Of a stretch of DNA of 64,000 bases, positions 279 through 55,959 are shown piece after piece (position 1 is the first letter of the stretch; each line of letters starts with the position of its first letter). A program made the position numbers and the translations under genes. The DNA lies in contig CM037588.1 in the NCBI GenBank assembly GCA_021018995.1, positions 90,246,765-90,310,764 of the forward strand. Direction: 5' to 3'. The stretch comes from Chloranthus sessilifolius (taxonomy: Eukaryota; Streptophyta; Magnoliopsida; Chloranthales; Chloranthaceae). Below the pieces are notes generated by a model, which was not told the DNA's origin, ran no database searches, and saw only the letters and a program-made list of their open reading frames with translations.

Positions 279-545
279 CAAAATCGATCAATCAATTTGG
301 AAATCGATTAATCGATTTTTGACAGAAAGCAGAATTGGGAATTGCAGTATGAAATCGATTAATCGAATTAAATTTCGATTAATCGACTGGGCACTACCAG
401 TGGCTGAAAAAGCTTGCTTTTTTTGAAAAACCGATTAATTAATTTTGGGGTCAATTAATCGATTTTGGAATTTCGATTAATCGATTTTGGAAATTCAATT
501 AATCGATTTTGGGGTTGATTAATCAATTTTGATTGTGTTTGCCAT
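279..545. repeat. TCGA-TTAA-TCGA palindrome array (5' LTR)
   Basis: About nine exact or near copies of the 12-bp palindrome TCGATTAATCGA occur, many in pairs facing each other across an AT-rich spacer. In the well-kept pair near 352-385 the centres are about 20 bp apart. Later copies have decayed (for example TCAATTAATCGA). This is not coding sequence. Confidence 0.9.
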
Positions 546-1681
546 ACTACTTCCGTATTTCGGCCATAACTTTTACTCCGAACTTCGATTGATGCCATTC
601 TTATGGAGTTTGAAAGAGAATAACAAACTCTAAAACTTTTGTGTTTTGACTAATTCATGAATCTAAAGTTTTAAAGGTCATAATTTAGGGGGAAGGTTTC
701 ATCAAATTCTATATTGGCATGAAATTGCTCGTTTCAACCTTGATTTTGAGAAAACACTTAAATAAGTCTAGGTTTTTAGTGAGTAGAGTTAGTTCTTAAT
801 GCATTATGGTGTGTTTGTGATATAGATTGAGGGTGGGAAGCCGTCGATAAGGGCTGTAGTGTCGCTTTGAACGGCTCCGTGCGTGAGGTAGGGAACACCT
901 TGAACATGTACTTTAATTACAAGATTATATATGTAGTGATATAGAAAAGAGTAATTATGCATTAAAACTATGAATCTTAAGTGTGTGTGTGTGTGTGAAC
1001 ACTAAGCAAGGAAATGAAGTATAATATGAGCATGTGACGTCCCCAAGGGATGTGAATGTTATATGGGCATCTGTGTGATACATTGAGCTAGTCACATCCC
1101 AGGGATGCATGGATAATATAAAGCAAAGTGAATGAGAATTGATAAGACCTAATATAATATATTTAGCACAATCACACGGTGAATAACTATATGTAGTACA
1201 CTTTTGATATTTAAGGTTTGGAGAATACTCCACCGACGTGGCGGGATACCCATGACTGACTCGACAGAATATCCATTACCGGTACGGTGGCCAATCCGTA
1301 CACCAATTGCACATCCCAGGGATGTATGTATGAGACTTCAACCTCGCTGCCTAGGAGAAAGGGACCTGGATAGTACTAAATGAATGAAAAAGGATATAAA
1401 AATGGTCTGATTAGACGACGATGGAGGGCATTCCATCAGACGCAAGATGCTATTGTAAATCGAGGAATATTTAAGTTATGATTTAAGTCTTTAGGCCAAA
1501 TCATTATCTTATATGAGCAATTGAAAATAAAGGAATACATATAAAGTAATAGTAACATTCAGTGCATCTTTTCAGCCATTTAAATTACTTTTCCAGCTAA
1601 TTTATTGATACATCATGTTTCTAAATGTCATGGAATATATGTGAGAGATTAACTTATATGTTCAATCAGTTGTTTCCCTAT

Positions 1682-1700
1682 TGAGCTAGGATGTAGCTCA
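1682..1700 (+). promoter_or_regulatory. Conserved LTR hairpin
   Basis: TGAGCTA-GGATG-TAGCTCA folds as a 7-bp stem with a 5-nt loop. The same position in the chromovirus LTR (32184-32202) has TGAGCTT-GGATG-AAGCTCA, so one base pair has changed on both sides. Its role is unknown; an RNA-level job in the leader or 3' end is an inference. Confidence 0.7.
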
Positions 1701-2180
1701 TCCCTAAACTATACGTCATAGGTACATGTGTAGATCGAGATCCGGCTGCGGAGAAAGGCTTGGGATCTCCCGTTTGGGGAACTTTACCTTAGGTAAGGTT
1801 TGGACATGGGTATGTTTTGGGTTTGTTTAATGGAGGTTTTGAGGTCTTTTGGATCATGAACTGGGTATGTAGGGGGATTTATTATTGTATTAAGATTTAT
1901 TTTATAAGTATGTTTGTAGGTCACTGTTTAGGTGATGGTCGGCCATCACCGGTGGTTTTCTTGTGGGCCTATTTTATTCAGTCTTTATATATAGAAGAAC
2001 TTTTATTGTTGTTATATTTTACTTTGACTCTACCTTTGTTGGCATACCAAGTAAATTCTGTATTCGGATTGTGATATGTGCTACTCGACGGTCTGATTTT
2101 CCCTGAGTTTATGATGTAAGGAAGAAAAAAAAATATTGTGTCAATTTTTATGGAATCGGGGAAAATCGGGCTGTCACAGT

Positions 2181-2192
2181 TGGTATTAAAGC
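2181..2192 (+). other. Primer binding site (tRNA-iMet type, decayed)
   Basis: TGGTATTAAAGC lies 2 bp after the LTR end CTGTCACA. The usual plant site complementary to initiator methionine tRNA is TGGTATCAGAGC, so two positions differ. Confidence 0.8.
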
Positions 2193-2549
2193 TTAGGCGT
2201 TAGGTCTTATTGGGATGATGTGGCAGTAGAGCTTAAGCATTAGGTCTTGGCTAAGGACTTTTTGGGACCCAAGACTATGGCAGTAGATTCTATTAGGGTA
2301 TAGGAGATCCAATTAGGACTCTATCATGGTTGGTGGAAACCTTAGGCTTTAGGTTCTGGAAGTCTCAAGTCGTGGCAGTAGGTTTCGTTTAGAGCTTGGG
2401 TTGTGGATCTTCACGATCTCTTATAGTGGAGATAATTGATGACTGTGATAGAAGTGCGGTGATAAGATACATGATATGTTTTAGATGTTTTGTCAGAATA
2501 TAGAGCCATAATGATCTTGATCGCTGTTGATTAAAACATTTATTTCATT

Positions 2550-3229: not shown

Positions 3230-5440
3230 GACAAATGCCTTAGAAATTGTGGTTGCTTTCAACACTTATGGTATATCATGACACCATCATATGTGCATTT
3301 GATTAAATCACCTGCATGACATAAACAAATTTCAATTTCCAACGATTAACTAAGTAGGTGATCAATAGAAGGATGGGACTTGAATTTGTCGTGATAGTTA
3401 GGGTGACATTACGTAAGGATAGATTGTTAGTAATCTAAAATTGAGTTGATATTATGAGTAATGATGATTGAACTAAGACTTGTAAATTTACACTTAACGG
3501 ATCTAATTGTAATGTTCTTCTTTCTAACTAATAAATCATGAGTGCATTGTGTTCGAAAGCTCTCCTTTCAACTTTGAGTGCAGTTGTTAAACACTATAGT
3601 TTTAAGTGGACATCCTTAGGGAGTTACAAACCTAGAGAGCTGGGACAAAAAAAAGAAGAAAAAACTCTTTAGGATTTGGAATGTTAAGGAAATATTGTTG
3701 ATAGTTGACATAGATTTTGATGGCCCACATTAGGGACTCAACCCTTAGTTTGAAGGAAACTAATTAAGAAAAGATAGAATTCATAGTGACTTCTCAATTC
3801 ACTATTGGATTAGCTATCACTACTATAACCTTAGACTTTGTCTTACCGTTATGATCACACAGTTACAAATACTTTAAATCCATATTGACGACGGTGGATC
3901 AATAGGGACAACAAGAACAATTAGTGACTCTATTGATTGTGTTGAGGTCTGTGCACATGAAGAGACATTTCATCTTAAGCTGAGATGTATGTAAGACCTT
4001 AATATTATGAATCGAAGGGGTGTTCTTTAGAATTGCTATCTAGAATTATCTCCTTGTTAGAATGATTGGATACATTGTGATCGAGTGTCTTTTCTTTTAT
4101 AATCTGAATGGTATTTGAGTGTGATAAGAATGAGTGAAGGCACAAATTTGAGATGTTAAGATCATTATTACAGGTTTATAATAAAATCATTTTGTAATGA
4201 CTTCATACCTTTGTGGATGTATGTTATGGCTAACGATGGTAGTTATTATGGTATGCTTACAGTGATGGTAATTTAAATCGTGGAGGAAGTCGCTCATTTA
4301 GACTAGTGGTTAAGATTATTCCAAATTGATGGTTATCGAAATTCCCAATTTCACGGGAGTGTATTTTCAGCTTTGTGGATGCGTGCTATCATGGGTTACG
4401 TGATGGTATCAAATTTCATTATGGTAATGACTAGTTGGGCCATAAGAAATTTTATTAATTGATATATTCAACTGATATATTCAACTTTTCCTGTATTGTA
4501 GTTAGATTTTATTCTAATGGATATAGTATCAATGGGGTGAGTCAACTTTTCTCTGACTGATTGTGTCAGAAGTCTAGACCCAACTGTGACTGTCACAGTT
4601 GGTATCAGAGCGTGTAAGTTTCATAAGTGGGAGACTGTGTTAGATAAGTATTATCTGAGATCTGGAGGTGTCTATTGGAAATTTTTCAGTATGATTATTG
4701 ACGTGATGCAATCATTAAGGGATAATTTGATGATTTGCTAGGTTAGTAGTAAGTTGGGAAATGCTTGCCAGTTGGAGGGTCCTGCTTATGATTTCGGTTT
4801 TTGGATTGATGGTTGTAATCTCAAGGTTAATATCTCTTTCTTGTGGATATATTCTTGCCAACTATTTATAAAGATACTTCTTAGGTAGTGGAAGTGAGGT
4901 TTGTAATTACCTGTGCATGAGTTAACTAATCTATCACTACGACTCCTGAGTGAGCACCAGTCCGGTTAGTGCTAGATGGACATCCTTATTGTAAAGCTCA
5001 GCATATAGATTTTTACCAGTGTGTGATCAATCTTTAGATGATGTGTAGTAAATCTCCATTCAATTCTGCGGCTTTGACTGTGTGTAATTCTAATTCATCG
5101 TAATGTATGTAATTCCAATTCATTGCAGCATTCGCTGTGTGTGATTTGAGTTTAACAAATGATTACTGTATTGACTATCCAAACGTCACGTCGTTCACTT
5201 TCGAGGGAGAAAATTCCTTCCGGAGGGGTAGTGGAGTACCTTCTTCTCTTTTACATAAATTTTGAAGGGTGGATTGTCGGTGTGAACACGTGTGGATATG
5301 CTGATTTTGGGTGTAGCTGATTTGACTATGACAGTGAGTGTGTGATTGTGTCAAGTTTTGTAGTTACAAATATTTTTATACATTATTGATAATTGAGTTC
5401 TTACTCAGATTTCCTTCCATGCATTTTGGAAGACGGAAAT
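3230..5440 (+). other. Non-coding interior of the LARD-like element
   Basis: No open frame of useful length and no retroviral domain could be read here on either strand. A second LTR-end plus primer-site signature sits at 4590-4611 (separate entry), so part of this stretch may come from another gypsy copy. Confidence 0.6.
4590..4611 (+). other. Second LTR end and primer site inside the interior
   Basis: CTGTCACAGTTGGTATCAGA, followed by GCG, reproduces an LTR terminus (TGTCACA) and an intact iMet-type primer site (TGGTATCAGAGC at 4600-4611). It lies 2.4 kb inside the element, where only one such site should exist. No matching LTR body is visible upstream, so it is probably a relic of an older related element or a template-switch product. 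Confidence 0.75.
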
Positions 5441-6048: not shown

Positions 6049-6664
6049 TGTAACATCCTGAAAATTTTGACTTTAAAGAGTGTACCTCGGGACGTGTGCC
6101 TGCCTGGTCACTTATGCGATCAAGTGAAAGTCAACTTGATGACCTAGATTAGATTAGATTTAAGGTGAAAATACACCTAGGTGTGTGGTGTGGATCTTTT
6201 GATAAGGTTGCATACACCTGTTATGGGTGTATGTGTTTTACACCAAAACATGAATTGGGTTAAATAGGTTAAAGGCTAAGAGAAACTTATTTCTCTTTGA
6301 TTTTGGTTGGTGGTTAGAAATTTAAGAAGGGAGAGAGAGAGGTTAGAGAGATAGAAGAGAAAATGCTTGGGAGTAAATACAAAAGATTTGTGTGTGGGAT
6401 TACAGATTGAAGATTGTACACGAGCTTTAAATTTCGAGGAAATCGCACGTGGAATTTCGTGGAGTTGAAGCTAGGAGCCCTAGCTCTAGATCCAAGCCCT
6501 TGAATCACGTTGGATTGGAGGTAACGTTTTGTTAATTGATGATATGTGTGAAGTTTGAGCTTTAATTTAATGTATAAATATTAGATTAAAAGAAATAAAA
6601 GAAGAAAAAAATTTGAGAGAAAATCAAGCTAGATGAACTGCCCGAAAAGGGCTGGTTTCTTGTC

Positions 6665-6965
6665 AAAATCGATCAATCGATTCAAAAATTGATTAATCGA
6701 TTTTTAGCAGAAAGAAGAATTGGGAACTGCAGTACGAAATCGATTAATCGAATTAAATTTTGATTAATCGATTTTTGGGTTCGATTAATCGATTTGAAAT
6801 CGATTAATCGACTGGTGGCCAGTGGCTGAAAAAGCTTATTTTTTTGAAAAATCGATTAATTGATTTTGGGGTCGATTAATCAAATTTTGAATTTTGATTA
6901 ATCAATTTCAGGGTCGATTAATCGATTTTGGAAATTCGATTAATCGATTTTGACTGTGCTTGCTG
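6665..6965. repeat. TCGA-TTAA-TCGA palindrome array (3' LTR)
   Basis: This is the counterpart of 279-545, about 0.6-0.9 kb into the LTR. Roughly ten sites are visible. Number and spacing differ from the 5' LTR, so the array has gained or lost units since insertion. Confidence 0.9.
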
Positions 6966-8108
6966 ACACTACTTCGGTATTTTGGTCATAACATTTTACT
7001 CCAAACTTCGATTGATGCAATTCTTACGGCATTCGAAAGAGAACAACGAGCTCTACAACCTTTTTATTTTGACCAACTCATGAATCTAATGTTTTAAAGG
7101 TCATAATTTAGTGGGAAGGTTGCATCAGATTCTATATTAGCATGAAATTGTCCGTTTCAACCTCAGTTTTGAGAAAACACTTAAATAAGTCTAGGTTTTT
7201 AGTGAGTAGAGTTAATTCTTGATGCATCATGGTGTATTTGTGATATAAATTGAGGGGGAAAGCCATCAATAAGGACTGTGGTGTCGATTTGAACGACTCC
7301 GTGCGTGAGGTAGGGAACACCTTGAATATGTACTTTAATTGTAAGATCATGTATGTAGTGATATAGAAAAGAGTAATTATGCATTGAAAATATGAATCTT
7401 AAGTGTGTATGTATGTGTGTGAACACTAAGCAAGGAAATAAAGTATAATATGAGCATGTGGCGTCCCTAGGGGATGTGAATGTTATATGGGCATCTGTGT
7501 GATACATTGAGCTAGTCACATCCTAGGGATGTATGAATAATGTAAAGCAAAATGAATGAGAATTAATAAGGCCTAATATAATATATTTAGCATAATCACA
7601 CAGTGAGTAACACTATATGTAGTACACTTTTGATATTTAAGGTTTGGAGAATACCCCACTAACGTGGTGGGATACTCATGACTGACTCGGCAGAATATCC
7701 GTGACCGATACGGCGGCCAATCCGTACACCAGTTGCACATCCCAGGGATGTATGTATGAGACTTAAATCCCGTCGCCTAGGAGAAAGGGACCTAGGTAGT
7801 ATTAAATGAATGAAAAAGGATATGAAAATGGTCTGATTAGACGACGATGGAGGGTATTCCATCGGGCGCCCGATGCTATAGTAAATCGAGAAATATTTAA
7901 GTTATGATTAAAGTCTTTAGCCCAAATCATTGTCTTATATGAGCAATTGAGAAAAAAAGAAAACATGTAAAGTAATAGTAACATTCGGTGCATCTTTTTA
8001 ATCATTTAAATTATTTTTTCAGCTAATTCATTGATATATCATGCTTCTAAAATGTCATGGAATATGTGTGAGAGATTAACTTATATGCTCAATCACTTGT
8101 TTCCCTAT

Positions 8109-8127
8109 TGAGCTAGGATGTAGCTCA
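8109..8127 (+). promoter_or_regulatory. Conserved LTR hairpin (3' LTR copy)
   Basis: It has the same TGAGCTA-GGATG-TAGCTCA stem-loop as 1682-1700 with no change in either arm, although the surrounding LTR has diverged. Confidence 0.7.
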
Positions 8128-8604
8128 TCCCTCGATTATACGTCATAAGTACAGGTGTAGATCGGGATCCGACTGTAGAGAAAGGCTTGGGATCTCCCAT
8201 TTGGGGGACTTTACCTTAGATAAGGTTTGGACATGGGTATGTTTTGGGTTTGTTAAATAGAGGTTTTGAGGTCTCTTAGATTATAGACTAGGTATGTACG
8301 GGGATTTATTATTGTATTAAGAATTATTTTATAAGTATGTTTGTAGGCCACTGTTTAGGTGATGGTCGGCCATCACTGGTGGTTTTCTTGTAGGCCTGTT
8401 TTATTCAATCTTTATATATAGAAGAACCTTTATTGTTGTTATATTTACTTTGACTCTACCTTTGTTGGCATACTAAGTAAATTCTGTATTCGGATCGTGA
8501 TATATGCGACCCGACGGTCCGATTTTTCCTAAGTTTATGATGTAAGAAAGAAAAAAAAATATTGTGCAGGTTTTTATGGAATCGGGGAAAATCGGGCTGT
8601 CACA

Positions 8605-9797: not shown

Positions 9798-12042
9798 TCA
9801 ACCCAAATTTGTATCATTGACATCAAGAACAATGGGAGATAACTGGGCACATAAATTGCTCATCTCTTTCTCCCATTTCTCCCTAGCCTCCGCATGCTGT
9901 TTAACCGTCGCCACATGCTTTTTGGCATTCACTTCACGAAAATACCTCTCATAATTTTAAGTAGAGTTGCATGTCTTCATAATCCTCCTCTATCTTTAGT
10001 CAATTATGCCAAAGAGAAACAGTCATCGATTGTTCGGCCACCAAGGTGGCGTTGGATCGACTTAGTTCCTCCTCAAAGGCATCTGTATAGACTTCCATGG
10101 AATGGATGAAAGTGACATTACAATGACCTGGGACGACATAGGTTCTCCCTGATAAGACACAATAGCCCAGGTCAAAGAGTCAGAAGCGACGAGATCATGT
10201 GGACCCTCGCCACTCACAATTAAAGCCATGGAGGGCACTTAGTAGGCTCCTCCCGGATATCCCCCTCAGGAATGGGGGGTGAGGAAATGGGCTCCTCAGA
10301 CTCCATGGGCTCAGGAACAGTGTTGACCCCCGGCTCCTCCGATGAAGAAGGGGGAGTAGGGCTAGTAGGCTCCATGGTCGGGACATCGGAATGGGCAATG
10401 TCTAAACCCTCCTCCACAAAGGGCTCGCTAGACAGTGGGGGGGAGGGGGGGTGGACTAGGTGGAGGAGCAGGTCCGTCATCATGGGAAGACCCACTCAGA
10501 TCGGACCTTGACAATAAAATTGAGACCCCCCACTCACATCTGCCAAAAGTCCCCTCATGGAGGCGATCTCAGCTTGAATCTCTCACTGCTCCGTCTCTAA
10601 CGCACTGAGGCGTTGCTCCACTATGGACTGAAAGGTGGAAGTGAAAAATGAGTCCACAAATGGGTCGCCCCCTATTGATGGCCTCATCCATCAACCAACT
10701 AAAGCCACCGGCACCTATGTCAAAGGTGTCGGGCATAAAAGTAGTGGGGAGGGGTATGGATGGAGGGGTCATGGTGGATTTGGCGGTCAAACGCTTTGGG
10801 GTAATGATGGGGTCAGCGAAAAGTATGGTGACCAGAGGTAGTGTGATGGAAGGGGGTATGGGTGGAGTCTCGGCCCAAGGAAATGGTGATGGGGGCCGAG
10901 GAGACGAAGGGGTAAAAGGTGGTGTCCCCCGTCTCCAGAGGTTGTGAAGGTGATGGAGTGAACTGAATGGGCTGGGCAAATGAAGGTATAGGTAGGGATG
11001 GGGTAGGAGTAGTGGTGTTGGCTGTTCCAGCAGCAGATTCAACAGGGCTAGAGACGGAGACTACAGGAGTCTCCGTCCGAGGTGCAGCCATGGAAGAGGC
11101 CACAACAGCCTACTCGGAAGTAGTGGGTTGGGCCTTCCTCCATTGGCTCACCTCGTAGAGATTTGGGAGCACTGTCAGAGTGGGCTCCTTCTGGTCGATG
11201 TTGTACCCTGATGGAGTAATAAGCGAGTAATGGCTCGACCGTACAGGAGTCCATGCAACACCCGATGGTACCGTGACAACGCTAATTTTCTTAAAGTATC
11301 GAGTAAACCATAGAAAACTAGTTTTGTCGGCTCAAACCACCAACCATTAAGGACAACATAGAGGACTTGAAGAAGGTCCCCACGCCTTTGGGTTTTATGA
11401 TATATCAGAAATAGTTTTTTATATAACACTACGTCTGCAAAGAATAGGTCGGGTAAAAGGGCTGCTCTGGTGGTGAAAGTGGCACCCACAGGTTGCTTTA
11501 CTAAAATTGCAAACACTAGTTCAGAGAAGGTTGGGAAATCATGGCACCTCGGCATGTCACAACCAAAAGGAGGTGTAGTTAGGATGCCACAGCCTTCAGC
11601 CAACCGTACCCGATCAAACGAAATCGAATCCATCAACCTTTGTCGAAAAGCGGCCTAGTCCAGCAGAATTATAAACAAGATTTTGATAAAAGAGTTGGAC
11701 CAGCTGGGGGTACACTGGCGTCAGTGAAGGGACCAGCAAGTCTGCGAGGCCGAATCGCTTAAAATAAGCCTGTGAAAACTAGGCCTCAGGTAGCTTCTCA
11801 AAATACTTCATGTTGAACTCAGGTTCGCCAAAGAAGTCATGGTGCATCATGGTGGACAATGGGTTTTCCCTCCACTAGTTCTGGGTCACAGAGGCAATGG
11901 GTGGTGATTTAGATGCGGTAGTCAAAGCCCTGGTGCCAATAAAAATAGCAACACCTCAGTTCAGAAGCACGGAGGGGCGTGCTTTCCTCTTGGGCGGGGC
12001 ATCCGCCATGGGTGCCTTGCCCTTGCCATGTTTCTTACCCAT
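9798..12042 (-). pseudogene. Accessory (extra) ORF of the Athila-type element, broken
   Basis: The start at 12042 opens with a lysine-rich tail (MGKKHGKGKA, then PPKRKARPS) that looks like a nuclear localisation signal. A central segment (about 11370-11250) reads YHKTQRRGDLLQVLYVVLNG followed by WWFEPTKLVFYGL. It aligns with CHKTQRLGILMNALFAAFEG of the plus-strand ORF at 38395. A Pro/Ser/Thr-rich middle and a charged, coiled-coil-like C-terminus (EAREKWEKEMSNLCAQL, ending NDTNLG-stop at 9798) follow. Several frameshifts and stops break it. The family resembles proteins annotated as putative plant transposon protein next to gypsy pol genes; this is from memory, not a search. Upstream lies the array 12350-12666. 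Its biochemical role is unknown. Confidence 0.65.
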
Positions 12043-12349: not shown

Positions 12350-12666
12350 CTTGGACCAGTCGAAATGCGATTTGATTGATCCTGGGGCCTTAAATAAGCC
12401 CCAGCCTCTAAAACTTGACCAATCGAAATCAATTTCGACCGGTTGAAAAAATAGGTAGAGAGTTAAATTCTCGGGCCTACATCGGTTCTGAAGCAAAAGT
12501 TCCAATTTCGACCGGTCAAAACCCAAATTCGGGCAGCTGAAACACAACAGAAACTTTTGTCTTTGTTATAAATTTAATTTGAGAATCAGTCTTGACCAGT
12601 CAAAATTAATCTTTTCTCTTCTCCATGAGCAAAACTGACCGGTTGAAATCCACTTCAACCGGTCGA
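12350..12666 (-). promoter_or_regulatory. TCGA-CCGG-TCGA array and TATA-like box before the accessory ORF
   Basis: Sites of the TCGACCGGTCGA type, mostly with one or two changes, are centred near 12660.5, 12640.5, 12597.5, 12534.5, 12513.5, 12440.5 and 12420.5. Within pairs the distance is 20-21 bp. Next on the minus strand comes CTTATTTAAGG (12389-12399), a TATA-like box, then a half-site, then a C/T-rich stretch like a plant 5' UTR reaching the ORF start at 12042. This suggests an internal promoter with the array as its upstream element. The same core fills this element's LTR. Confidence 0.65.
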
Positions 12667-42530: not shown

Positions 42531-42545
42531 GTGGTATCAGAGCTT
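42531..42545 (+). other. copia primer binding site
   Basis: GTGGTATCAGAGCTT contains the full iMet-complementary string TGGTATCAGAGC. Confidence 0.93.
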
Positions 42546-42552
42546 GAGATTC

Positions 42553-42641
42553 ATGACTTCCAATATGTTACAACCTCAACTTCCTCATTTCACTGGTAAA
42601 AACTACAATCAATGGAGTATTCAAATAAAGGTTTTATATGA
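42553..42641 (+). pseudogene. gag: copia gag, 5' part
   Basis: The ATG at 42553 opens MTSNMLQPQLPHFTGKNYNQ, then WSIQIKVLY, the typical N-terminus of copia Gag (the FTGKNYNQW motif). It is cut by the CACTA element and continues at 51962 in the same frame (SQDLWDIIETGYVE). Confidence 0.88.
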
Positions 42642-42659
42642 CACTATGTGAAAATGAGA

Positions 42660-44280: not shown

Positions 44281-44289
44281 AGGTTTAGC

Positions 44290-45748
44290 ACCTGTAACAA
44301 TGAATAGGCACTGTTGTGGACTGATGGGCGATACTACTTGTAGGAAACAAAGCAGGTTAGAAGCTCATGCGAATTGGAGAAGATCCTAGTGTAGAGATTT
44401 GGATATTTGATGTGAGTTACTATTTTCTTAAAAAAATTAATTGGAGAAGATCCTAGTGTAGAGATTTGGATTGCTGTATGTTTATTGTACTCAACAATGC
44501 CCACTAGATAAATGGGCTTGTAACTATAGAAAGGTTTTCTTGTCGAATACTGGGATGCATATTTCCCAAAAGGATACCTCTATTCGTGCCAACATATATT
44601 CTGAAAGCGCCAACGTGTACAACCCTGTGTTACCCATTGACTGCTTGAAATCAGATGATGGAGATCGTTTTTACCCTGATTTTCCACGCAATGAATCTTG
44701 AGACCATGATCTTTCCATCAGATGTAAGTTTTTTATTCCACGTGTCACAGATCTCAAATAATGGCTCTAAAATCACGTTTGAGTGTAATGTGTGCCATAT
44801 GATTTTAGGGGCACTTATGGGGTATCCATGCCTCATGGAATAAGAAATTACCGTTTGATGATACGCTTATGGTCTCAAGATCCATTGGGTAGAAGATTAG
44901 GGTGAAAAATGATCTCCACCATCTGATACCAAGCAGCCGATGGTTCGCTTTCAGTAAATCTGTTGACGTGAATAGAGGTACCCTTTCGAAAATTGCAAGG
45001 CCCAGTGCCTTGGTGATGTTGTGGTCCCATGTTTTTTATTTGCACTGTTACATTGAGGAATCATTGGAAATATATTTATATCGATGCATTTTGATGAACT
45101 TGAAATTTTTTTATATTCAGGCTGCTATGAATTTCATATAAGATTTTTTCTTATTGAGAGCTTAATAAGAAATTTCAGAAGTTCTACTTGTAAACATAAC
45201 CTATGATTACTTTTTAACAGAGTCTGCTTGATGTTGCTGCTGTTGGGATCGAGCCTTGGTGTGTTCCTATAGAAACTGCACAAAGATGGGAGAATACTTT
45301 CTCAAAGAAAAAACAAAAACTAATTCAGTTGTCTACTGAGTTGGTAGATGAAGTTTGGAAAAACCAGCCTTCACCTAAAATTTGCCCTGTCGTTATACAT
45401 CCGCTAGAATTTGCAGGTCGTGTAGTTGAATAAAAGTTAAGGGATCTAAGAGAAAAGCTTTCTCAGGTGAAGGCATATGGTGTAATTATTACGGCCCTCG
45501 ATGAGGTATCCTCACATCTTTTTCCTAACATTCTATGCCCCTAGGATTGTATGAGTTTGTGGTTGCACCTACTTTGAAGTATAGTGTGTTAATTTGCATC
45601 TAAATGTATATTTGGACAATTATATGTTTCATGGCTAGGCATACTAATGATATCTGGTTTCATTAACTATGCAGGTTGCTTGGTTGTATAATGTTCGTGG
45701 GAATGATGTAGCCTACACCCAAGTTATTCATGCATTTCGAGTTATGTC
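44290..45748 (+). pseudogene. Captured fragment of aminopeptidase P (Xaa-Pro aminopeptidase)
   Basis: Three exon pieces appear in gene order. 44290-44400 carries LWTDGRYYL-stop-ETKQ after a one-base shift; WTDGRYF/YLQA is a hallmark near the N-domain of plant aminopeptidase P. 45221-45505 (after a TTTTTAACAG acceptor, before GAG/GTATCC) reads SLLDVAAVGIEPWCVPIETA, RWENTFSKKKQKLIQ, LVDEVWKNQPSP and LRDLREKLSQVKAYGVIIT-ALDE, with one stop (GAA to TAA). 45675-45748 (after ACTATGCAG) reads VAWLYNVRGNDVAYTQVIHA. The metal-binding catalytic domain is absent. The enzyme family removes N-terminal residues before proline; this fragment cannot. A 32-bp direct repeat (44375 and 44440) has been added. 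Confidence 0.8.
44401..45220. other. CACTA interior between captured exons
   Basis: This is partly intron of the captured aminopeptidase gene. An open stretch 44471-44701 gives RANIYSESANVYNPVLPIDC, which I do not recognise and which may be from another donor. Confidence 0.4.
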
Positions 45749-46220
45749 GTGCAAGAAAGAAAGAAAAAAATTTATTTTTATTTTTATTTTTTAATAAATG
45801 CAGTATTAGAGCTAAAGTCTTCAAAAAAATTCAATTTGCGTGGGGGAAGTTTTTGCTTAGTTATCTTCTCTAACATCTTCACATGGATTAAAAAAAATGG
45901 GTTGTATAATTTCACATGTCTTATGGTGTCATATGGAAAGAATGTGGCCCTGTCCAGCCTCAAGCATGCTAAGGAATGGGTTGGAATTGTGTATTTTACT
46001 TTGGTTAAGTGAAGTTCACACTGGTACTTCAGATTTTACCCTTGTAAGTTATGACTTAAAAGTAAAATATTCAGACTCGTGACTTTTGAAGTCCATGGTT
46101 AAAGAGGTTATAAATAGAAGGGAGTATAAGGAGATGCTAATGAATTTTGATAGATCTTTTGTAACTTATTTAATTTCATAATTTACATCTTCACTTATAT
46201 GGTTTTACTTGGTCTTCTAG

Positions 46221-46504
46221 AAAGCTGGAGGACAGTGAAGCAACTGAGCAATATTGTACAGAGATTGGCAAACATGATGCCTATATGCAGTAGGTTTTTA
46301 TTCGTTTTCTCTTCGGAAAGTTTTTCAATGACTGCTGACTTCCTTACATTTAATTTCCATATCAGATTATAATTGAATAGTTTGTGCCTCAGGTTACTGG
46401 ATATGTATTTGGATCCAAAAGATGGGAAAGAACCTATGTTTAATGTTGCAATTCACCTTCTCCACAAGCATGGAGAGTCTTTGGATCCTCTCCAAGTGCT
46501 AGAG
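46221..46504 (+). pseudogene. Captured fragment of a VPS39 (Vam6)-like gene
   Basis: Exon piece 46221-46290 (after GGTCTTCTAG) reads, with one base shift, KAGGQ then EATEQYCTEIGKHDAYMQ. After an intron, exon 46393-46504 (CTCAG acceptor, GAG/GTATCA donor) reads LLDMYLDPKDGKEPMFNVAI, then HLLHKHGESLDPLQVLE. The HxHGESLDPLQVLE string is what I know from the clathrin-repeat C-terminal half of plant VPS39, a subunit of the HOPS vacuole-tethering complex. Only two exons are present. Confidence 0.7.
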
Positions 46505-46590
46505 GTATCAAACTTCATCGTTTCTGCAATGAGTTAAAAATTGGAACTGGAAACCGAATTGAAACTGGGAAATGGATTCGGTTTTAGTTT

Positions 46591-46653
<63 letters not shown>

Positions 46654-49599
46654 TTTTGGTTTTTGATTTATATTTTTTCTATTGTTTTGAGGTTATTTAT
46701 ACCCATCTGGTTTTTGGTTTCAGCCACCCAAAATTGAACTGATTGGGATTCATTTTCGGTTTTTTCAGTTTAGTTTCGGTTACTTCGGCGAATTGGTTTT
46801 TGTATTAGATTTAGTATACCCACTGGCCATATGATCTTGAATTTCAGTCTATTGAAGCTGCTAATCTATGACAAACTACTTGATTCCTACGTAATTTAAA
46901 ATTAAAGTAATCCTATAATAATTGCACATAAATTAGTTAGTTTTCTAAGTAATAGTGTTCTTATTCTAAAATAAACTTCCAACTGAAAGAACTTTTGCTA
47001 ATCAAAATAAATGTCTAGATTAAATGATGCAAATACCTTTTCTACTGCTAAAAAACTCGACCATCTCATGTTGCCCATCTTTGACCTAGGTTATTGGCAT
47101 TTAATAGCTAGTAAAGGGTAACTCACAGTTCCCCTTTGAGAATGAAATGATCACTGATTGGGTATATGTAGCACTATTCTTCATCAAGTGGCAAACTTGA
47201 TGCATAACCGATGTAAAAATATGATGGGTTAAAAGCTTGCATCAAAAAAATAGTTCAATCGTGTGATTGAAAGAGTTACGGTTTTAAAATGAAAGGGTAT
47301 CATGTAAATCTCCAAACCTATTTTAGCCTTTCATTAACTGTGATCATCTCTAATGGGAACAAGTCGACTACTTTATACCGGGTGCTACATGAAACCTATC
47401 ATAACTTTTTAAGATAAATATTAAGCATCTTGACTGTTTTAAGCCGTCCAAGTGACAAAATATCATATGAATTAATGCATTCTTAAAGGGTTTGTCATCA
47501 TTCATCAAATGGTTCAAACAATTTGATCCAAGCCCTTTTATACAGATCCATATTAAAGCGCCAGATCAAAATGTTCAAACAATCAAATGGACAACAAATG
47601 TGCTCTAGATAGTCTGAAAGTGTAATAGTGAGAAGGTTATATATTGATGTCAATTTCTTCAAAAATAGAGAGCACACTTTAAAAAACTCGACCATATCAT
47701 GTTGCCCAGCTTTGACAACTTGGAGGTCTTTGACATCAAGAATGAAGATGGTAATATCATAACGAACGTCAGATTTTTTTTTTAAGTTTCATTTTTCATT
47801 TTTGGCATTTTTAATTTTATATTTCATATTTGAAAATATGATGATATATTGGTATGCCAATATAAGAGTTCTCCTATATTTTCTTTTCCTTGCAACTATG
47901 TATGGTTATCTCCAAATTTTACTCATTTGGGATTTAATATTTATAAGTGATGATATTATCAGATAATTTCTCACTTCGATCTCTTTCATGGTCTAAATAA
48001 TGTCATGGAGAGAGTGCATTTAGTATCTCCAATTCTTGTAAATGAGGCTTGTTTGCATAGGTGGTGTGCTTTCATAGGTTGGTTTATCTAATTTCTTGTT
48101 GTTGTGGATTTTATTTGTATTTTTTTGGTAATTTGTTGATGAATCAATGTGTTGATGGGGTTTTGTGAATCTAATCGGCTTATTTGAGGGAGAAAAATTG
48201 AGGGAGATTGCGTGCCTTGGGAGTAGGCAACAGTTGAATAGATTTGGATGGAGTTTATGATACTTAGAGCTGATTTATTTACTTTAAAAAATTGATTTAG
48301 TGTGGACTAGGGTTAAGTGGGAGTAGAGTAGTCTTGCTTCATATGTACATATTTAGACTGCGGTGCATGGTTCATCCGCCAGCGTTAGGCATGCATACCG
48401 TGCACTGCATGGACTTTGAGGCGTGCACAGATCTATAGGTTGTTGAAGTCAGCACACACCCATTGAAAACTAGTGGGAACGAGTTGCACCATATTCAAAC
48501 TTATTTTTTTGCTATGTGATTAAAATGAAGCTGAACTCTTTATTGTAGTCAATCCAAAGCAAAAACCAACTGAATTTAACGTACCAAGGCAGCGGGAGAA
48601 CAAGAGTCTATATGTTGTCGAATGCAACCGATTCTCAGATACGACAGTAATGTGTACTCAGCTTTGCAGTTGATATATATGTAGATATAAACTCGCCCAG
48701 GCTAGGGTCCTAAGGTTTACACAGTGCTGCACTGTTATTTTATATAGAAATGAGATACATATACATTTTTGGGTTTTGGGCCCTTGCTTCAGTATCTTAT
48801 TCTTTGATTCGATAGCAAGTTCTCTTTGCTGGAATTTGGGTTGATCGGTATCCGATAGATAGAGACTTTGAATTTTATCTGGAATTAGTGTTATGTGTTG
48901 TCATTTTTACTGTACGTGGGGTGGAGGTAATGTTGGATCTGAACCTTCAATGTGGCAGGTCAACCCTTGGATGGAACAGAGCCCAAAATTAGGCGGTTTA
49001 GATGATCATGACCATTTGATTCAAAAAAATTAATGGTTAACATTTTTTATGTGTAACAAAAGCATTTGTCGATTGGATGCTCAGAATCAGCCCATTGGCT
49101 TGATCTATTGGCTCTGCCCCTTCCAAGAAATGGCCTGTCATAATCACTTGTACAACATAAATACCTAGAGCACCAAATACCCTTTCTTCTTTGTTTCTAA
49201 AAGAGTAAAGAAATTGGGTTTTCTAGTTTGATGCACTTTAACTAAATGAGCTATATTTAATAGCCCATTTGGTGAAATTAGTCACTTAGTAAGCCCATTT
49301 GGTGAAATTTATTTATATATTTGAATGAGAATATTGATATTTCAGAGAAGAGAAAAGAGGGCTAAAATCTGTCTTCTTTATCAAATCGAGACTTCTTAGT
49401 CTCCATTGATGGCTCTACTTGTTAGTTGTTACTAGCCTCTTCAGACTGTTGTTCACGTGCTTATTTATGTGAATTGTGGTACTGCTGCTGCTATTTTTTG
49501 CATCATCTATTGCTGCTGTAACAGATTTTTGGGTTCTAAAATTCAAGACTTTTGAGTCACCTTCCCTGTTGTAAAACCTAGTGACTTTACAGGCTTATC
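46505..49599. other. CACTA interior, mostly unassigned
   Basis: It holds a CGGTT-rich repeat unit (46540-46800) with a TA microsatellite (46592-46649), and a near repeat of AAAAAACTCGACCAT...CATGTTGCCCA at 47048 and 47686. Otherwise it is AT-rich sequence without recognisable exons. Confidence 0.4.
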
Positions 49600-50245
49600 A
49601 CTACAGAATATTCAGATTTGTGATTGTTCCGAGACTTCAAATTGAATTCCTGATTTCATTGGCAATTGGACGAGACTTAATAGATTGTTAGTACTATATA
49701 TCTTTTAACTTCTATGCATGTGTTTTTTAGAACCAATATACTATACAAAGGCAATTAAATGAATTGTGGTTGAAATCCATTGCAGAGACATGCAAGGTTT
49801 ATGGAGGGGCCAATTCCATCTAACATCCGTTTATTGCAAAACATAACTGAACTATGAGCTATTTTCTACCATTCTAAATGTTTTCCGTATAGTTTGTAAA
49901 CTACGGGGAAGGAGAAAGATGCATAGTCTTAGTTACTGGATCTGACTTTGGCATGTTGTGATTTTAGAAGGATATCCAACTTGAATGGACTAAGCATTGG
50001 TTTCCCTAATTTACAGAATTTGACAATAATTAGGAGATTGTGAGTTGAATGGATCTACTTCTAGATGTGCTATTACATCTGTTGGTTTCTTCTCTCAAAA
50101 CGTCCATCGGTTGCCTTGTATGATGCAAGATACTCATAAATTGCTCAATTTCAGGTGTTATCCCACGTTATCTTTGGAGCATGGCTAACATAACAACCTT
50201 GGAAGTCACTCTGGATAAATGCTTCTCAGATTTTCTGTAACTTTC
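49600..50245 (+). pseudogene. Captured LRR receptor-like kinase exons
   Basis: Leucine-rich repeats appear one per small exon, with intron-like gaps: IPDFIGNWTRLNRL (about 49650), MEGPIPSNIRLLQNITEL (about 49801), RRISNLNGLSIGFPNLQN (about 49970), and GVIPRYLWSMANITTLEVTL (about 50155). This exon pattern and the MEGPIP and FPNLQN strings fit the ectodomain of plant LRR kinases of the At1g53430/RFK1 group (LRR-VIII). No kinase domain is present. Stops interrupt the frames. Confidence 0.7.
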
Positions 50246-50594
50246 TTGTTGAGGAACCCAATATTTTCTATGTTTCATTCTCTTTAGTTTAGTATCACAG
50301 TCATGATACTCGTGCATTTAGGAGCTCTAATATTTTGGAGCCCCCTTGTGTTTCTAATGGTTAAACATTTTTTTAAAATGATTATATATATATATGTGTG
50401 TGTGTGTATGTGTGTGTGTGAAAATGTTCAAATGACTAAAGTTATGGTCCTGGTAGATTTTGATTTTTGTTGTTATGAAGGTTTTACAGGCAACATGGGA
50501 ATGAAAATAGAGCCATCCATAACCAAGTGCAAAGAAGGGGAAAACTGGACAAAGGTCACATTTAAGCCTGATTTGGCTAAATTCAACATGAACC

Positions 50595-50681
<87 letters not shown>

Positions 50682-51640
50682 CTCCAGTGGTGAATACAAG
50701 ATAGGTACTCCAACATCAAGTTGATCTTCACTTGGACCCCCCAAAATACTATTTTGATGTAATGTGGAGCTCCGGTAGGGTATATAGATCAATTAAAATA
50801 AATAAAATTGAATTTAAAATTGAAATTCAAATGTTGACTGTGATTATTTAATCCTAAAAAATACGTAGTGGAGATGAAATTAATTTTTTTTTTTAATAAA
50901 TGATCAAAACAAAGCTGCCTTGCTCCACATAGCACCCAAAAGCCTAAGAAGGTAATTTATCTATCAGAATGCTTACCATTTTATCTGTTATCTCCCCTTC
51001 CTCTAATTTGTTTTTAAATGTGCTATGTTGAAAATAACTAGTGATTGAAAATAATTGTTAATGTAATTTGATGACTCCAGTCTTTGTGTAAAACAGATAT
51101 ACAACTACTGCAGGTTCTTCTTTGGCAGTGGGACTGGTATTGTGCCTAATGATTATTTCGTCTCCATTGGTTCATTAAGCTCAAATGCTGACAAAAGAGG
51201 CAGCCATACTAATAGTTTGAAATTAGGTTAACCTAGTTGTATTTATTCTATTTTCTTTTTCCTTCTAGTGATTCGATTCCTAGAGTCGAAGAATCAGATC
51301 TTTCTACTTTAGAAGCTGAAAATAAGTTTCTTTCTCCATTCTCTATAGACCGATTTGTAAATGATAATTTTATAATGATATTTCAGTTATGGAACTTTAT
51401 TTATCACTTAAAAGAAGATCTATCTTATTTCTTTTTGTGTTTTTACTGCTTGTGTAATGGTTACTAGGCCTCCTTTGGATGTTTATTCAGAGATCGGAAT
51501 CCGATCATTGATCGGAAGCATTAATTTTTTATATGCAGGTGAAAGATTCTGTGTTAATTTTGTTCTGAACTTAATTTATTTTATTATTATTTTTTAAATT
51601 AATGTATTATTTTTTTTTGAAAAAATATAAATAAAAACGA
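50246..51640. other. CACTA interior, unassigned, with TA microsatellite
   Basis: (TA)n of about 80 bp lies at 50598-50677. Open pieces at 50460-50580 and 51110-51290 (YNYCRFFFGSGTGIVPNDYF) might be further captured exons, but I cannot name them. Confidence 0.4.
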
Positions 51641-51958
51641 TGGCCGAAAACCGTCGTTCTTCTTCTCATCTATGACCGTCATTGTATGAGAGAAAAACGA
51701 CAGTCAAAATGGGTCGTAAAAAAATGGGGTGAGTGTTTTTTTTTTTTTAAATGATATAAAAAATAAGAGCTCAAAACCGTTGTTCGTAGTCGACAGTCGA
51801 AGACAGTCGTTACTTTGATGAAATGAACGACGGTCTAAATATGTCGTTGAAAAATACTACTGTTTTTTTAAGGACAGCTCACTCGATTGTCTAAAACTGT
51901 CATTGTTTGGGAAAACGATAGTCATGGGCTGTTGTTTTTTTTGCATTTTCACGTAGTG
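51640..51958. repeat. CACTA right subterminal array
   Basis: About ten short inverted motifs of the type AACGACGGTC / GACCGTCGTT with variants lead into the terminal repeat. Such arrays are where CACTA transposase subunits bind. Confidence 0.8.
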
Positions 51959-51961
51959 TGA

Positions 51962-52840
51962 GTCTCAAGATTTGTGGGATATTATTGAGACCGGATATGT
52001 AGAATCGGAGGATCAAGCGGCTCTCACACAAGCTCAACTCAATGAGTTGAAAGAAAATCGCAAGAGGGACAAGAAGGGTTTGTTCTTCATCTATTAAGCT
52101 ATGGATGAAGTTATTTTTGAAAGAATTTCATCGGTGTCATCGGCAAAGCAAGCATGGGATACTCTCTATGCTTTATACAAAGGCAAAGATAAAGTCAAAT
52201 TGGTGCGGCTCCAAACTCTTTAAAGTGAGTTTGATTCTATAAGAATGAAGGATTCGGAAGCGGTTGAAGATTTTTTCAATTGGGTAAGTTCTCTTGTTAA
52301 TCAATTAAGGATTAATGGTGAAAATCTTCAAGATCAAAGAATTGTAGAAAAAAATCTTAGAAGCTTGACTCGTAAGTTTGAATATATTATTGTTGCATTT
52401 GAAGAATCTAAGGATTTATCTACTTTGTCTTTGAAAAGTTAGTTGGAATCGCTTCAATCTCATGAACTTTGTATGAAATAATTTGATTCTTCTCCTCTAG
52501 AGCAAGCTTTTCAAACTCAAATTTTCTTTAAGGAAAGTTCTAAAGGTGGAAGAGGAAGACATTCTAATCGCAGACGAGAAAGGCATAATGAAGGAAGATA
52601 TCAAGCAAAAGAAAGAGATGATGATGGATCATCTTCATCATCAAGAGGAAGAGGAAGAGGAAGAGGCCGATCTTCTCTTTCTAATGTTCAATGTTATCAT
52701 TGTCAAAAATATGATCACACCATAAAATATTATAGAAAATGATTGGCGGAAGAAGAAAAAAAGGAATCGAATTTTGTTCAAGAGAATAATCAATGTAAGG
52801 AAGATGACACTCTCTTTCTTGCTTGCAATGTTTGAGAAGT
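51962..52840 (+). pseudogene. gag: copia gag, 3' part
   Basis: It reads SQDLWDIIETGYVE, then ISSVSSAKQAWDTLYALYKG, RLQTLQ-like, MKDSEAVEDFFNWVSSLVNQ and LRSLTRKFEYIIVAFEESKD, which is the retrotran_gag/UBN2-type domain of copia Gag. The zinc knuckle is CYHCQKYDHTIKYY (about 52690), whose last Cys has become Tyr. Several stops are present. Confidence 0.88.
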
Positions 52841-53910
52841 TGCATTCAATGAAGATTGGTATCTTGATAGTGGTTGCAGTAACTACACGGGAAACAAAGA
52901 CGTATTTGTTACTTTAGATAAATCTATTCAAAGTGAAGTAAGGACTGACAATGATAAACGACTTTTCGTAAAGGGTAGAGGTGATATTCTTGTTCAATCA
53001 AAAAATGACATCAAACACATCTCAAATGTTTTCTATGTACTCGGCCTCAAACACAATCTTTTAAGTGTTGGACAACTCTTTTTGAAAGAACACAATATTT
53101 ATTTCAAAAGAGATGCATGTGAAATCAAGGATATGAACAATGCACTCATTGCTAAAGTAAATATGACTCCAAACAAGATGTTTTTACTTAAGTTTCAAAA
53201 TAAAGTTCTTCCTTCCTTCAATTCTATCATCCAAGATAAATCATGGCTATGACATCTTCGGCATGGCCACTTGAGTTTTAACTCTTTGACTCTCATGTGC
53301 AAAAATCACATGGTGAGAGACATGACAAATATTGATCGCAAAGACCAAGTTTGTAAAGGATGCGTACTTGAAAAACATTAAAAAAATTCTTTTCCGATTG
53401 GGAAAGCGTGGAGGGCATCAAATCCTCTTGAGCTTGTTCAATTGGACCTATGCGGGCCTATGCACAAACTTCTATTGGCGGTAATCGTTTTTCCTCATTT
53501 TTATTGATAATTATAGTCATAAATCTTGAATTTATTTTTTCAAAGAAAAATTGGAGGTATTAGGCCACTTCAAAGCATTTAAGGCCTTAATTGAAAAGCA
53601 AAGTGATTTTATATTGAAAATTTTGCGTACCAATCAAGGTGGTGAATATGTTTCTCATGATTTTGAGAATTTCTTAAAAGATAATGGCATTCGGCATCAA
53701 TTAACCACTCGGTACACACCTCAGCAAAATGAAGTTGCCGAAAGAAAAAATAGAACACTTATGGAATTGGCTAGAGGTATGTTAAAAGTCAAAGGGATGC
53801 CAAATATATTTTGGGCTGAAGCTGTTTAATGTGCTAACTATCTTTTGAATTGTGTCTTATCCAAAAGTGTTGAAGGCATGATACCACAAGAAGCATGAAA
53901 TGGATACAAA
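52841..53910 (+). pseudogene. pol: copia protease and integrase, broken
   Basis: Protease: WYLDSGCSNY (about 52858) with the catalytic DSG. Integrase zinc site: HGHLSFNSL and CKGCVLEKH (53260-53380). First catalytic Asp in LVQLDLCGPM (53433). The second catalytic Asp, normally in RTDxGGEY, is Asn in LRTNQGGEYVS (about 53625). The Glu segment QQNEVAERKNRTL is intact (53721). A frameshift lies near 53500. The frame is cut by a solo LTR at 53916 and resumes at 56770. Confidence 0.88.
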
Positions 53911-54251
53911 CCATGTGTGACAGCCCGAATTTTCCCAATCTTAAATTTTTGAGACATATATATATATATATTTTTTTCAAACTTATACCAAATGGGAAAA
54001 CCCGAACCGCCAGATCGTAGATCACAATCTGATACAGAAAATATTGGTACAACAAAGCGAAAACATAAACTCCAGTTATACAGTGAAAGAACAGTAATTA
54101 AGTACCTACAAGTGTATTCAAAGAATTACAAAACTATACTTACCAAAACTCAAATACAATCTACGATCCCAAAATCTTACTACTCCACAAGTCCTCAACC
54201 CCAAATCCCGTATCTTGCTAACTGCCAAACCTGTGACGTATAGTCGAAGGG

Positions 54252-54270
54252 TGAGCTTCATCCAAGCTCA
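54252..54270 (-). promoter_or_regulatory. Conserved LTR hairpin
   Basis: On minus, TGAGCTT-GGATG-AAGCTCA, identical to the chromovirus copy at 32184, and followed by TACGTCACAGGT as in the other LTRs. Confidence 0.75.
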
Positions 54271-55762
54271 GTAGAAGAAATTCAAACACAATTCACATCT
54301 TATCATTGAAGTGCATAGATTCGGTGACATAATTTCAAAACCATTTTGTATCAAACTGAGTTGCAAATATTATATTTCATTTTCAAAACATAGCGCAGCG
54401 GAAACAAAGCATATCGAGAACAAATACATATGAAAAACAAAGATACTTATCAAAACATAGCTGAAAATAGAAGCATAATAAATTAAAACAGAATATGTTA
54501 GAGACGGTGACATATCACGGTAAGAGCATAACAAAACGGGACAACATATCCTCAAATCGAAGCATACAAGAAACGAGACGTACCAAGAAACGGAACAAAC
54601 ATATCGAAAGCCAAAGAATCACATAGCGGGAACAAGGTAAAAACCTCAGGGACTCAACCCCTCTTTCCACACAAAGTATGACCAACACATCCCATAAGCG
54701 AGGAACCGAAGCACATATATCAGAAGGCCAAAGCATCCCATAAGCGGGAACAAGGTCATAGCCTCGGAGACTCAACCCCTCTTTACACACAAAGTATCAT
54801 CACATCACATTACATATGGTCACAAATCAACGAGGGCCAAAGCATCCCATAAGCGGGAACAAGGCATCCCATAAGCGGGAACTGAGTAAAAACCCCGGGG
54901 ACTCAACCCCTCTTCGGAGACTCAACTCCTCTCCGCCACTCGTTGTTCAGATTCAAAGAGTTCTTATCCTTACCAGAAACATAAACGAATTCAAAAACGG
55001 AACGAAACACAAACTGATACGGAATAAAACACAAACGGATACATAATCAGAACGAACACCGATACATAATTGGAACGGACATACACATGCGTTCAATTAC
55101 TAATTCATACTTCAAAGCTTTCATATTTTCTAAAACAATTACAAAACATTCATTTATATCACATCATCTATGAACGAAATAAAAAATGCAATTAGATGGT
55201 GAATTTCCCCTACCTTAACCTCGATGCTGCACGAAGCCAAGCGAAGCTCTATCAATGGCTTTTCATCCTCAATCTACATCACGAACATAACATGTATCAA
55301 AGACTAACTCTAGTTACTAGAAACTTAGACATCTATAAATGTTTCTCAACACGAGGCGGAAACAGACAAATTCATGATAATCTGAAATTTGATGTACCTT
55401 ACCATAAACTTTTGACCTTTAAACATTTAGATTCATGAGTTATTCAAAACATAAAAATTGTAGATCTCAAAGTTATATTTCCAACGCAATAAGAATCGCA
55501 TCAAGTGGAGTTTGGCACAGAAAGTTACGGCTAAAATACCAAGACTGTATCGGTACCTCAGTCGAAACGCGCCAACTCAAACTTTATGTAGCTTCCCTCC
55601 ACATTTTAACCTTTAAAAAATTTGATTCACCAATTCTAATATACATAAAAGTTGTATTTCTATTTTTCCTCTTTCCAACGCCTCAAGAATTACTTGATTC
55701 TAAGTTCGGGGCAGAAATTTATGGCTAAAATACCGAAGCATTGTCGGCGCGCACAGTCAAAT

Positions 55763-55959
55763 TCGATCGATCGAAATCCATTTCGATTGATCGAATTTCA
55801 ACAGAAGTCCATGACACTCCCTGTTCTATACCTTTCGATCGATCAAATTTGAAACTCGATCGATCTAAAACCATTTTGATTGATCGAAATCTATTTTGAT
55901 CGATCGAAAACCTCCAGAAATCGAAATTCATCAGTCTTAAGCCAAATTCGATCGATCGA
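55763..55959. repeat. TCGA-TCGA-TCGA palindrome array (solo LTR)
   Basis: Sites are centred at 55768.5, 55788.5, then 55840.5, 55861.5, 55881.5, 55901.5, then 55953.5. Steps are 20, 21, 20 and 20 within groups. Two are exact, the others have one or two changes such as TTGATTGATCGA. Confidence 0.92.

Follow-up and report, generated by a model that had tools for sequence, protein, structure and literature searches.

Why should plant retrotransposons carry rows of short palindromes at regular distances, and what would read them? The question is raised by a window of 64,000 nucleotides from the genome of Chloranthus sessilifolius (C5:90246765-90310764; 2.17-Gb genome), whose content is nested long terminal repeat (LTR) retrotransposons of plant type. 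A preliminary description of the window had noticed arrays of 12-bp palindromes with constant TCGA arms and a four-base core (TCGANNNNTCGA, TCGA-N4-TCGA), and had proposed that a dimeric protein binds them. In the elements that could be read at both places, palindromes of one type stand in or beside the LTR and again inside the element, upstream of an extra open reading frame (ORF2) that follows pol. To the following reading we give about an even chance: these element-specific, dimer-type sites co-regulate the LTR promoter and an internal promoter, and their binder is most likely the element's own ORF2 protein.

Exact matches to TCGANNNNTCGA number 38 in the window. Sixty dinucleotide-preserving shuffles gave a mean of 0.55 and never more than 3 sites, and a chance origin was therefore rejected. 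All 38 lie in eight arrays, which as we bounded them total 3,448 bp, and all have a core of the form YYRR (Y, pyrimidine; R, purine): TCGA (12), TTAA (9), CTGG (4), CCGG and CCGA (3 each), CCAA and TTGA (2 each), and TCAA, TCAG and CTGA (1 each). The claim of dyad-symmetric sites with element-dependent cores is borne out. When one mismatch was allowed, 80 sites were found, 76 of them within the arrays, against 1.1 expected. The first mismatch screens demanded a YYRR core, and ACGT-type cores would escape them. In 26 of the 38 single-mismatch sites the change was C-to-T or G-to-A in an arm, the trace that methylation damage would leave in CpG sites that were perfect to begin with.

Steps within the arrays had been described as mostly 20-21 bp. 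For the window this proved too narrow, since only 26 of the 68 neighbour steps in the eight arrays (at most one mismatch) were 20-21 bp and 38 were 19-22 bp, but a spacing of two helical turns is far above chance: over 11 arrays, 70 of 114 steps measured 19-22 bp against 14.6 expected. The proposed genome-wide scan for sites and spacing gave the same picture. Sites number 438,185, against 42,247 for the reversed control pattern, and pairs separated by 12-42 bp number 221,742, against 230 for that control. Among 100 pairs listed, all located within the initial 1.75 Mb of contig 1 and forming 28 clusters by our criterion, the step was 19-22 bp in 84 (exactly 21 bp in 53) and 40-42 bp in 9; the genome-wide spacing spectrum consists of the pooled 12-42 bp count and these 100 pairs. 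A sample taken at fixed places (20 stretches of 10 kb, from contigs 1-10 at 20 and 60 Mb) held 38 sites, confined to six of the stretches, with YYRR cores in 31 and TTAA in 19; 15 of the 23 steps below 160 bp were 19-21 bp. The periodogram of the 11 arrays peaked at 10.4 bp (z 15; z 7 at 21 bp), a peak driven largely by the 20-21 bp steps, and many of the arrays are homologous and hence not independent. The two-turn step between neighbours is solid.

The layout around these arrays is clearest in element B, a chromovirus-like element with Ty3-type gag, reverse transcriptase and integrase parts, which may belong to Tekay. Its chromodomain-like end matched PF00385 with 21.9 bits, below the cut-off of 25.1. 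Besides the LTR array there is a second one, array D, about 160 bp past the stop of the integrase/chromodomain-like frame. That array D marks the 3' LTR of B was considered and rejected, because it resembles the 5' LTR solely in the palindromes. The arrays had all been placed in LTRs; this holds for A, B, C, G1 and G2 (Table 1), but array D is internal to B and array F is internal by the order of parts. The upstream regions of twelve further ORF2 copies were fetched (108 scored, from 48,332 genome candidates). In all twelve the order was integrase end, array, ORF2, with the integrase end broken in two of them, and each array had 9-17 sites (at most one mismatch), site number varying among relatives. 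The 148 pooled steps of the 13 internal arrays fell at 19-23 bp (90), 24-39 bp (1), 40-45 bp (23), 46-57 bp (5) and 58-66 bp (17), and 12 were longer. A TATAWA motif was present in 12 of the 13 internal regions of this TCGA family, 20-22 bp past the last upstream palindrome start; L032 lacked it, and L037 has a second TATA further up, its offset being obtained by subtraction. The core CCGA is common alongside TCGA in these arrays.

Altogether 22 ORF2 loci were read upstream, and an array was found in 20, weak in two (L024 and L025). In the Athila-like element of the window, the broken ORF at 11178-11778 is related to the ORF at 38398-39540 (tblastn E 4e-7 and 7e-4; profile E 1.3e-7 and 1.2e-6). 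Three of its relatives were read (L065, L066 and L067; 150 scored of 26,983 genome candidates), and both a CCGG array and a TATA-like box are present in L065 and in L067. The TATA offset was 30 bp in three of three CCGG loci and 20-22 bp in the TCGA, TTAA and TCAATCGATTGA families. In L016 another element intervenes and separates the ORF2 relative from its upstream region.

At C1:54.5-63.9 kb (L053/L054) the site listing of contig 1 led us to predict a TTAA array inside the element and, behind it, a relative of ORF2, and both were found on fetching; the expectation was formed beforehand, without prior written record. This element has TTAA LTR-side arrays at both ends and 17 internal sites with a TATA 21 bp on. 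Its ORF2 is 43% identical to that of B over 201 residues (E 1.6e-51) and its integrase-chromodomain 68%. In L027 the array is built of another palindrome, TCAATCGATTGA, and 13 of 13 steps below 30 bp were 22 or 23 bp (at most two mismatches). Genome-wide, 20,529 exact TCAATCGATTGA pairs 20-24 bp apart were found against none for the reversed control; since the search was limited to these steps, it says nothing about how frequent others are. An ACGT-like type is found in L024/L060, where the internal array has three sites, all decayed, and the 3' array has seven (cores AAGT, ACGT, ATGA, ACGA, CCGT, ACGA and TTGA; steps 20, 20, 48, 21, 20 and 21 bp). L025, where the evidence is weaker, has a third type, roughly CCTSTCGASAGG, in the same place upstream of its ORF2 relative. 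Seven CCTSTCGASAGG-like words (at most two mismatches) were also seen in L012, possibly another array family. The constancy of TCGA arms across families therefore could not be upheld: arrays of TCAATCGATTGA, and probably of CCTSTCGASAGG, hold the same place elsewhere. The tie between core and family stands insofar as the types differ among elements, but CCGA occurs beside TCGA and the cores are mixed in L024/L060 and in L061/L062.

In five of five elements readable at both places, the LTR-side and the internal palindromes were of the same type: TTAA (L053/L054), TCGA (B with array D), CCGG (G1 with array F), ACGT-like (L024/L060, decayed) and TCAATCGATTGA (L027). Random assignment of five types to five elements would give complete agreement with a probability of 1 in 120. 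Beyond ORF2, arrays on the LTR side were found only in L054 and L024/L060, perhaps in L027.

ORF2 itself is under purifying selection. Among 13 stop-free copies (that of the window and 12 fetched ones of 108 scored), dN/dS (the ratio of nonsynonymous to synonymous substitution rates) was 0.07-0.30 in the pairs listed, namely those that include the window copy or have a dS above 0.35, saturated pairs being dropped; the protein has therefore been kept by selection during multiplication of the elements. Between families, to judge from B and L054, ORF2 has diverged further than the integrase (43% vs 68% identity). The sole Pfam family matched was PF20167 (Transposase_32, labelled 'putative plant transposon protein'), at E up to 0.1 in 11 of 11 aligned members (best 1.5e-7); the window ORF2 gave E 0.0082 and 16.5 bits, below the cut-off of 45. 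ORF2 is a sense ORF located after pol with similarity to Transposase_32, and its N-terminus is basic and proline-rich. In a search of a protein collection none of 5,760 candidates reached E 0.001 or better.

Four features together suggest a DNA-bound dimeric factor: the place before a TATA box at a nearly constant distance, the symmetry of the sites, the two-turn step across linkers of free sequence, and the matched types. The arrays would be regulatory DNA. Their dyad-symmetric sites, for the most part grouped in pairs or runs with a two-turn step, would let dimers line up along the same face of the helix and contact their neighbours. Such sites would stand at two promoters per element, one in the LTR and one, presumed, inside the element before ORF2. 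The ORF2 protein may bind the palindromes of its own family and disregard those of others, and once bound it would switch on, or unsilence, the LTR and its own promoter. From motifs and their arrangement we infer that the TATA box is in use, that protein binds, that ORF2 is the binder and that the effect is activation or anti-silencing. A binder encoded by ORF2, probably working like VANC in the VANDAL transposons, is the simplest reading of the co-variation. A wider proposal, to which we give somewhat less than an even chance, is that Transposase_32-related ORF2 regulators are common to chromovirus-like and Athila-like elements, that each version recognises its own palindrome and binds it in phased pairs at the LTR and the internal promoter, and that such co-evolving lock-and-key pairs insulate the families of one genome from one another and occupy a large part of the approximately 0.4 million sites.

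Several observations weigh against assigning the sites to ORF2. Three of the five matches depend on weak sites or inferred membership (L024, L027 and G1/F): in L024 the ACGT type scored barely over TCGA in the 3' array (5 vs 4 sites), the 3'-side arrays of L027 lie in a presumed LTR, and G1 appears, by order only, to be the LTR of the element that holds array F. Most loci were chosen via ORF2 and their upstream regions read on purpose, which makes the array-ORF2 link a biased census. The arrays in L019, L020 and L022 and a cluster in L061/L062 have no assigned place in an element. No array was present in the 701 bp upstream of the ORF2 relative in L066, and no TATAWA in the 250 bp read after the LTR array of A or in the 460 bp read after that of B. 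No DNA-binding domain was recognised in ORF2 by Pfam or by a PDB profile search (one match, E 0.13). Phasing across gaps longer than 25 bp is only suggestive, because these gaps alone gave a weak signal (p 0.009 for all arrays, 0.09 for one array per lineage) and, with a free period, no significance.

A further objection is that one or more host transcription factors could yield the same matched arrays. An element under the control of such a factor would have to carry its sites at each of the two promoters, and the LTR/internal match would then follow with no element-encoded binder. In the available part of PMC2829016 the palindromes of Sireviruses mainly matched stress-related plant cis-elements, without a common binding site, and in the Athila-like L061/L062 (C1:458500-469500), whose LTR palindromes have mixed TACA, TTAA and TGCA cores, a profile search detected no ORF2. 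The cluster mentioned above for this locus is small (TGCA, TTGA and TCAA cores at 1939-1998, steps 19-21 bp). Against a host factor, at least four palindrome types (TCGA/CCGA, TTAA, CCGG and TCAATCGATTGA) go with different ORF2 relatives, and the internal arrays that could be placed, in what is a biased sampling, are all upstream of ORF2 relatives. We regard this explanation as unlikely.

It is less probable still, and rather improbable in our estimate, that the palindromes act in the transcript as hairpins, either supplying small-RNA silencing or escaping it, a role suggested for maize Sireviruses. An excess of small RNA on Sirevirus palindrome clusters is reported in the available part of PMC10760457, citing Bousios 2016. 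Four folded arrays were far more stable than shuffles (z -11.7, -10.4, -8.7 and -6.6), a result that does not discriminate because any palindrome array folds well. The internal arrays are located upstream of the TATA box, so that hairpins in an ORF2 message started there are unlikely, though the arrays are within the full-length RNA; and hairpins predict neither the constant two-turn step nor a TATA box at the next step. Neutral slippage of a 20-22 bp or 42-bp unit, with palindromy and spacing as by-products, is very improbable: a 42-bp tandem unit is visible in element A and site number differs between related arrays, but the linkers are nearly unrelated at a fixed spacing (exactly 22 bp in 43 of 50 TCAATCGATTGA pairs listed, with 20-24 bp allowed), the kept sites are CpG-rich and expected to decay fastest, as the C-to-T and G-to-A changes indicate, and the same layout returns with different sequences. 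Among those 50 pairs 41 linkers were distinct, and 35 distinct ten-base linkers had a mean identity of 0.39 against 0.33 for random ones; for the TCGA class the comparison used 71 pairs copied from the 100 listed. Simple decay and simple-sequence expansion, against which the preliminary description had argued, are disfavoured, because spacing is kept while the linkers are nearly unrelated.

The window holds fewer families than it seems to (Table 1). That the two TTAA arrays represent independent families was rejected, since they are in the two LTRs of one element, A, which are 88% identical; the LTR of A is homologous to that of C, and the LTR of B shows a patchy resemblance to the two. The likeness of the 3' LTR of A to C reaches upstream to 6049. 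Steps in the 5' LTR array of A are 20, 51, 20, 76, 22, 22 and 20 bp. At 4586-4611, inside A, there is a second A-type LTR end with a perfect primer-binding site (PBS) for initiator methionine tRNA (iMet), which hints at a nested or rearranged copy. LTR piece C, with other nested insertions, is enclosed by a Ty1/copia element at 42117-59147 (LTRs at about 42117-42529 and from 58783, reverse transcriptase at 57311-57775).

The CCGG element (G1 and array F) is probably Athila-like, as judged from the order of parts and the PBS; its gag-like ORF has no significant Pfam match. An Asp-type PBS-like sequence follows G1, GGGAGGCAACCC is present at 12859 on the minus strand, and another Asp-type PBS (one mismatch) is at 23912 beside a G1 relative. 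Asp-type PBS and GGGAGGCAACCC are what we take to be marks of Athila. Of the three CCGG arrays described before, those in the 15570-16110 and 24890-25290 regions were recovered, but array F has no exact site and six with one or two mismatches; in it TATTTAAG lies 30 bp after a palindrome start. The CCGG arrays consist chiefly of pairs of sites. A 225-bp gap in the first region holds a short element that was inserted at 15780-15964 and has a relative at 18550-18708. The insert begins CTACAAAAAATAAG, and it and its relative are inverted repeats, resembling miniature inverted-repeat transposable elements. In G2 a TATAAA stands about 151 bp past the last palindrome start, and the flanks (24606-24672 and 26249-26683) continue one repeat found at 21695-22191. 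Three more TCGA-arm palindromes (cores CCGA, CCAA and TCAG), two of them 21 bp apart, are located at 16335-16449, just outside the start of G1, where the adjoining stretch resembles 20862-21079; being beyond the LTR start, they were rejected as part of the G1 array. Elsewhere, 61312-62058 is a large inverted repeat, whose arms measure about 350 bp and are 80% complementary.

Table 1. Elements, palindrome arrays and associated features of the window (coordinates count from its first nucleotide).
Feature	Position	Strand	Remarks
Element A, 5' LTR	1-2178	+	start outside window; 87.95% identity to 6393-8604
TTAA-core array, 5' LTR of A	284-526	+	8 sites, at most 2 mismatches
PBS-like site of A	2181	+	iMet-type, 2 mismatches
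Element A, 3' LTR	6049-8604	+	start approximate; repeat of 1-2178
TTAA-core array, 3' LTR of A	6669-6947	+	mismatch screen
Broken ORF of ORF2 family	11178-11778	-	after array F; Athila-like element
Array F, CCGG core	12350-12666	-	internal by order of parts, upstream of broken ORF2
gag zinc-knuckle-like ORF	13167-13523	-	sub-threshold zinc-knuckle match, E 0.0099
G1, LTR of CCGG family	14599-16320	-	ends approximate; 74-77% identity to G2
CCGG-core array of G1	15571-16101	-	broken by small insert 15780-15964
G2, solo LTR of CCGG family	24673-26246	+	clear ends; nested in another repeat
CCGG-core array of G2	24888-25285	+	mostly pairs, 20-22 bp steps
Element B, 5' LTR	30281-32668	+	ends approximate; chromovirus-like
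TCGA-core array, 5' LTR of B	30869-31329	+	mismatch screen
PBS of B	32671	+	follows 5' LTR
gag, protease, reverse transcriptase, integrase, chromodomain-like end of B	32961-37510	+	several frames; Pfam
Array D, TCGA/CCGA core	37677-38127	+	between pol and ORF2
TATA box, presumed internal promoter	38138-38149	+	22 bp after last palindrome start
ORF2 of B	38395-39543	+	382 codons and stop; weakly Transposase_32-like
C, LTR piece homologous to LTR of A	54229-56764	-	ends approximate
TCGA-core array of C	55763-55959	-	mismatch screen

The pattern had been thought undescribed, but Sireviruses (Ty1/copia) offer a precedent. By the available part of PMC2829016, their RM palindromes are repeated many times, once in the LTR ahead of its TATA box and a second time ahead of an env-like gene; the motif is called Sirevirus-specific and absent from classic copia elements, and no common binding factor was found. 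High-copy, element-specific LTR palindromes are found here too, as is a second cluster before a 3' extra gene, here ORF2. Two of the motifs in Table 3 of that paper, ACAATCGATTGT (Tnd-1) and CGGTCGACCG (Vitis), are close to types found here. Differences from the account available are that the CGG-CCG signature core is not encountered here, only the CCGG family approaching it (Tnd-1 also lacks the core); that the hosts are Ty3/gypsy elements, chromovirus-like and Athila-like, and not Ty1/copia; that the sites mostly have TCGA arms with variable cores, a two-turn step and a TATA box at the next step, no spacing rule appearing in the part of PMC2829016 available; and that one ORF2 family is common to different lineages.

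The comparison with VANC drawn in the preliminary description has become better founded, because the matched arrays precede an extra ORF. In VANDAL DNA transposons an element-encoded protein binds clustered, family-specific motifs and the system diverges fast, as far as PMC5735166 is available; the VANC21 motifs have a uniform orientation in their arrays, and the main text does not use the word palindrome. Multiplied, family-specific motifs in the element's own non-coding DNA are found in both systems. VANDALs, in contrast, are DNA transposons, and binding by ORF2, likened to VANC by layout, is putative. Precedents for the extra ORF, within the parts of the papers available, are the sense additional ORFs (aORFs; PMC7264820) and the tandem repeats and TRP28 of Retand (PMC11963269); one of the additional ORFs, from Athila, resembles Transposase_32 and carries a nuclear localisation signal (PMC11728184; PMC7264820; PMC11963269). 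Like ORF2, sense aORFs lie outside gag-pol and are conserved in many copies, and that of the sunflower Athila is Transposase_32-related and predicted to be nuclear; unlike here, neither a palindrome array before the ORF nor a matching LTR array is mentioned in the available parts. Palindromes as insertion targets, to go by the part of PMC6911290 available, are a different question and were set aside. Of 25 papers that contain the literal 12-mers, none of the 20 listed seems, by its title and the start of its abstract, to concern such arrays. In the portions of the literature covered, the pairing rule, the TATA offset, the chromovirus-like and Athila-like hosts and the link between palindrome type and ORF2 family were not found, and these appear to be new.

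Many plant LTR retrotransposons bear extra genes of unknown function, and operator-like sites matched to such a gene suggest a function that can be tested. If the reading proposed here is true, ORF2 would be a self-specific transcription or anti-silencing factor, and the idea derived from VANC would apply to abundant retrotransposons as well as to a single group of DNA transposons. It could also explain the Sirevirus palindromes described in 2010, and the families would offer natural pairs of protein and site specificity from which the code might be worked out.

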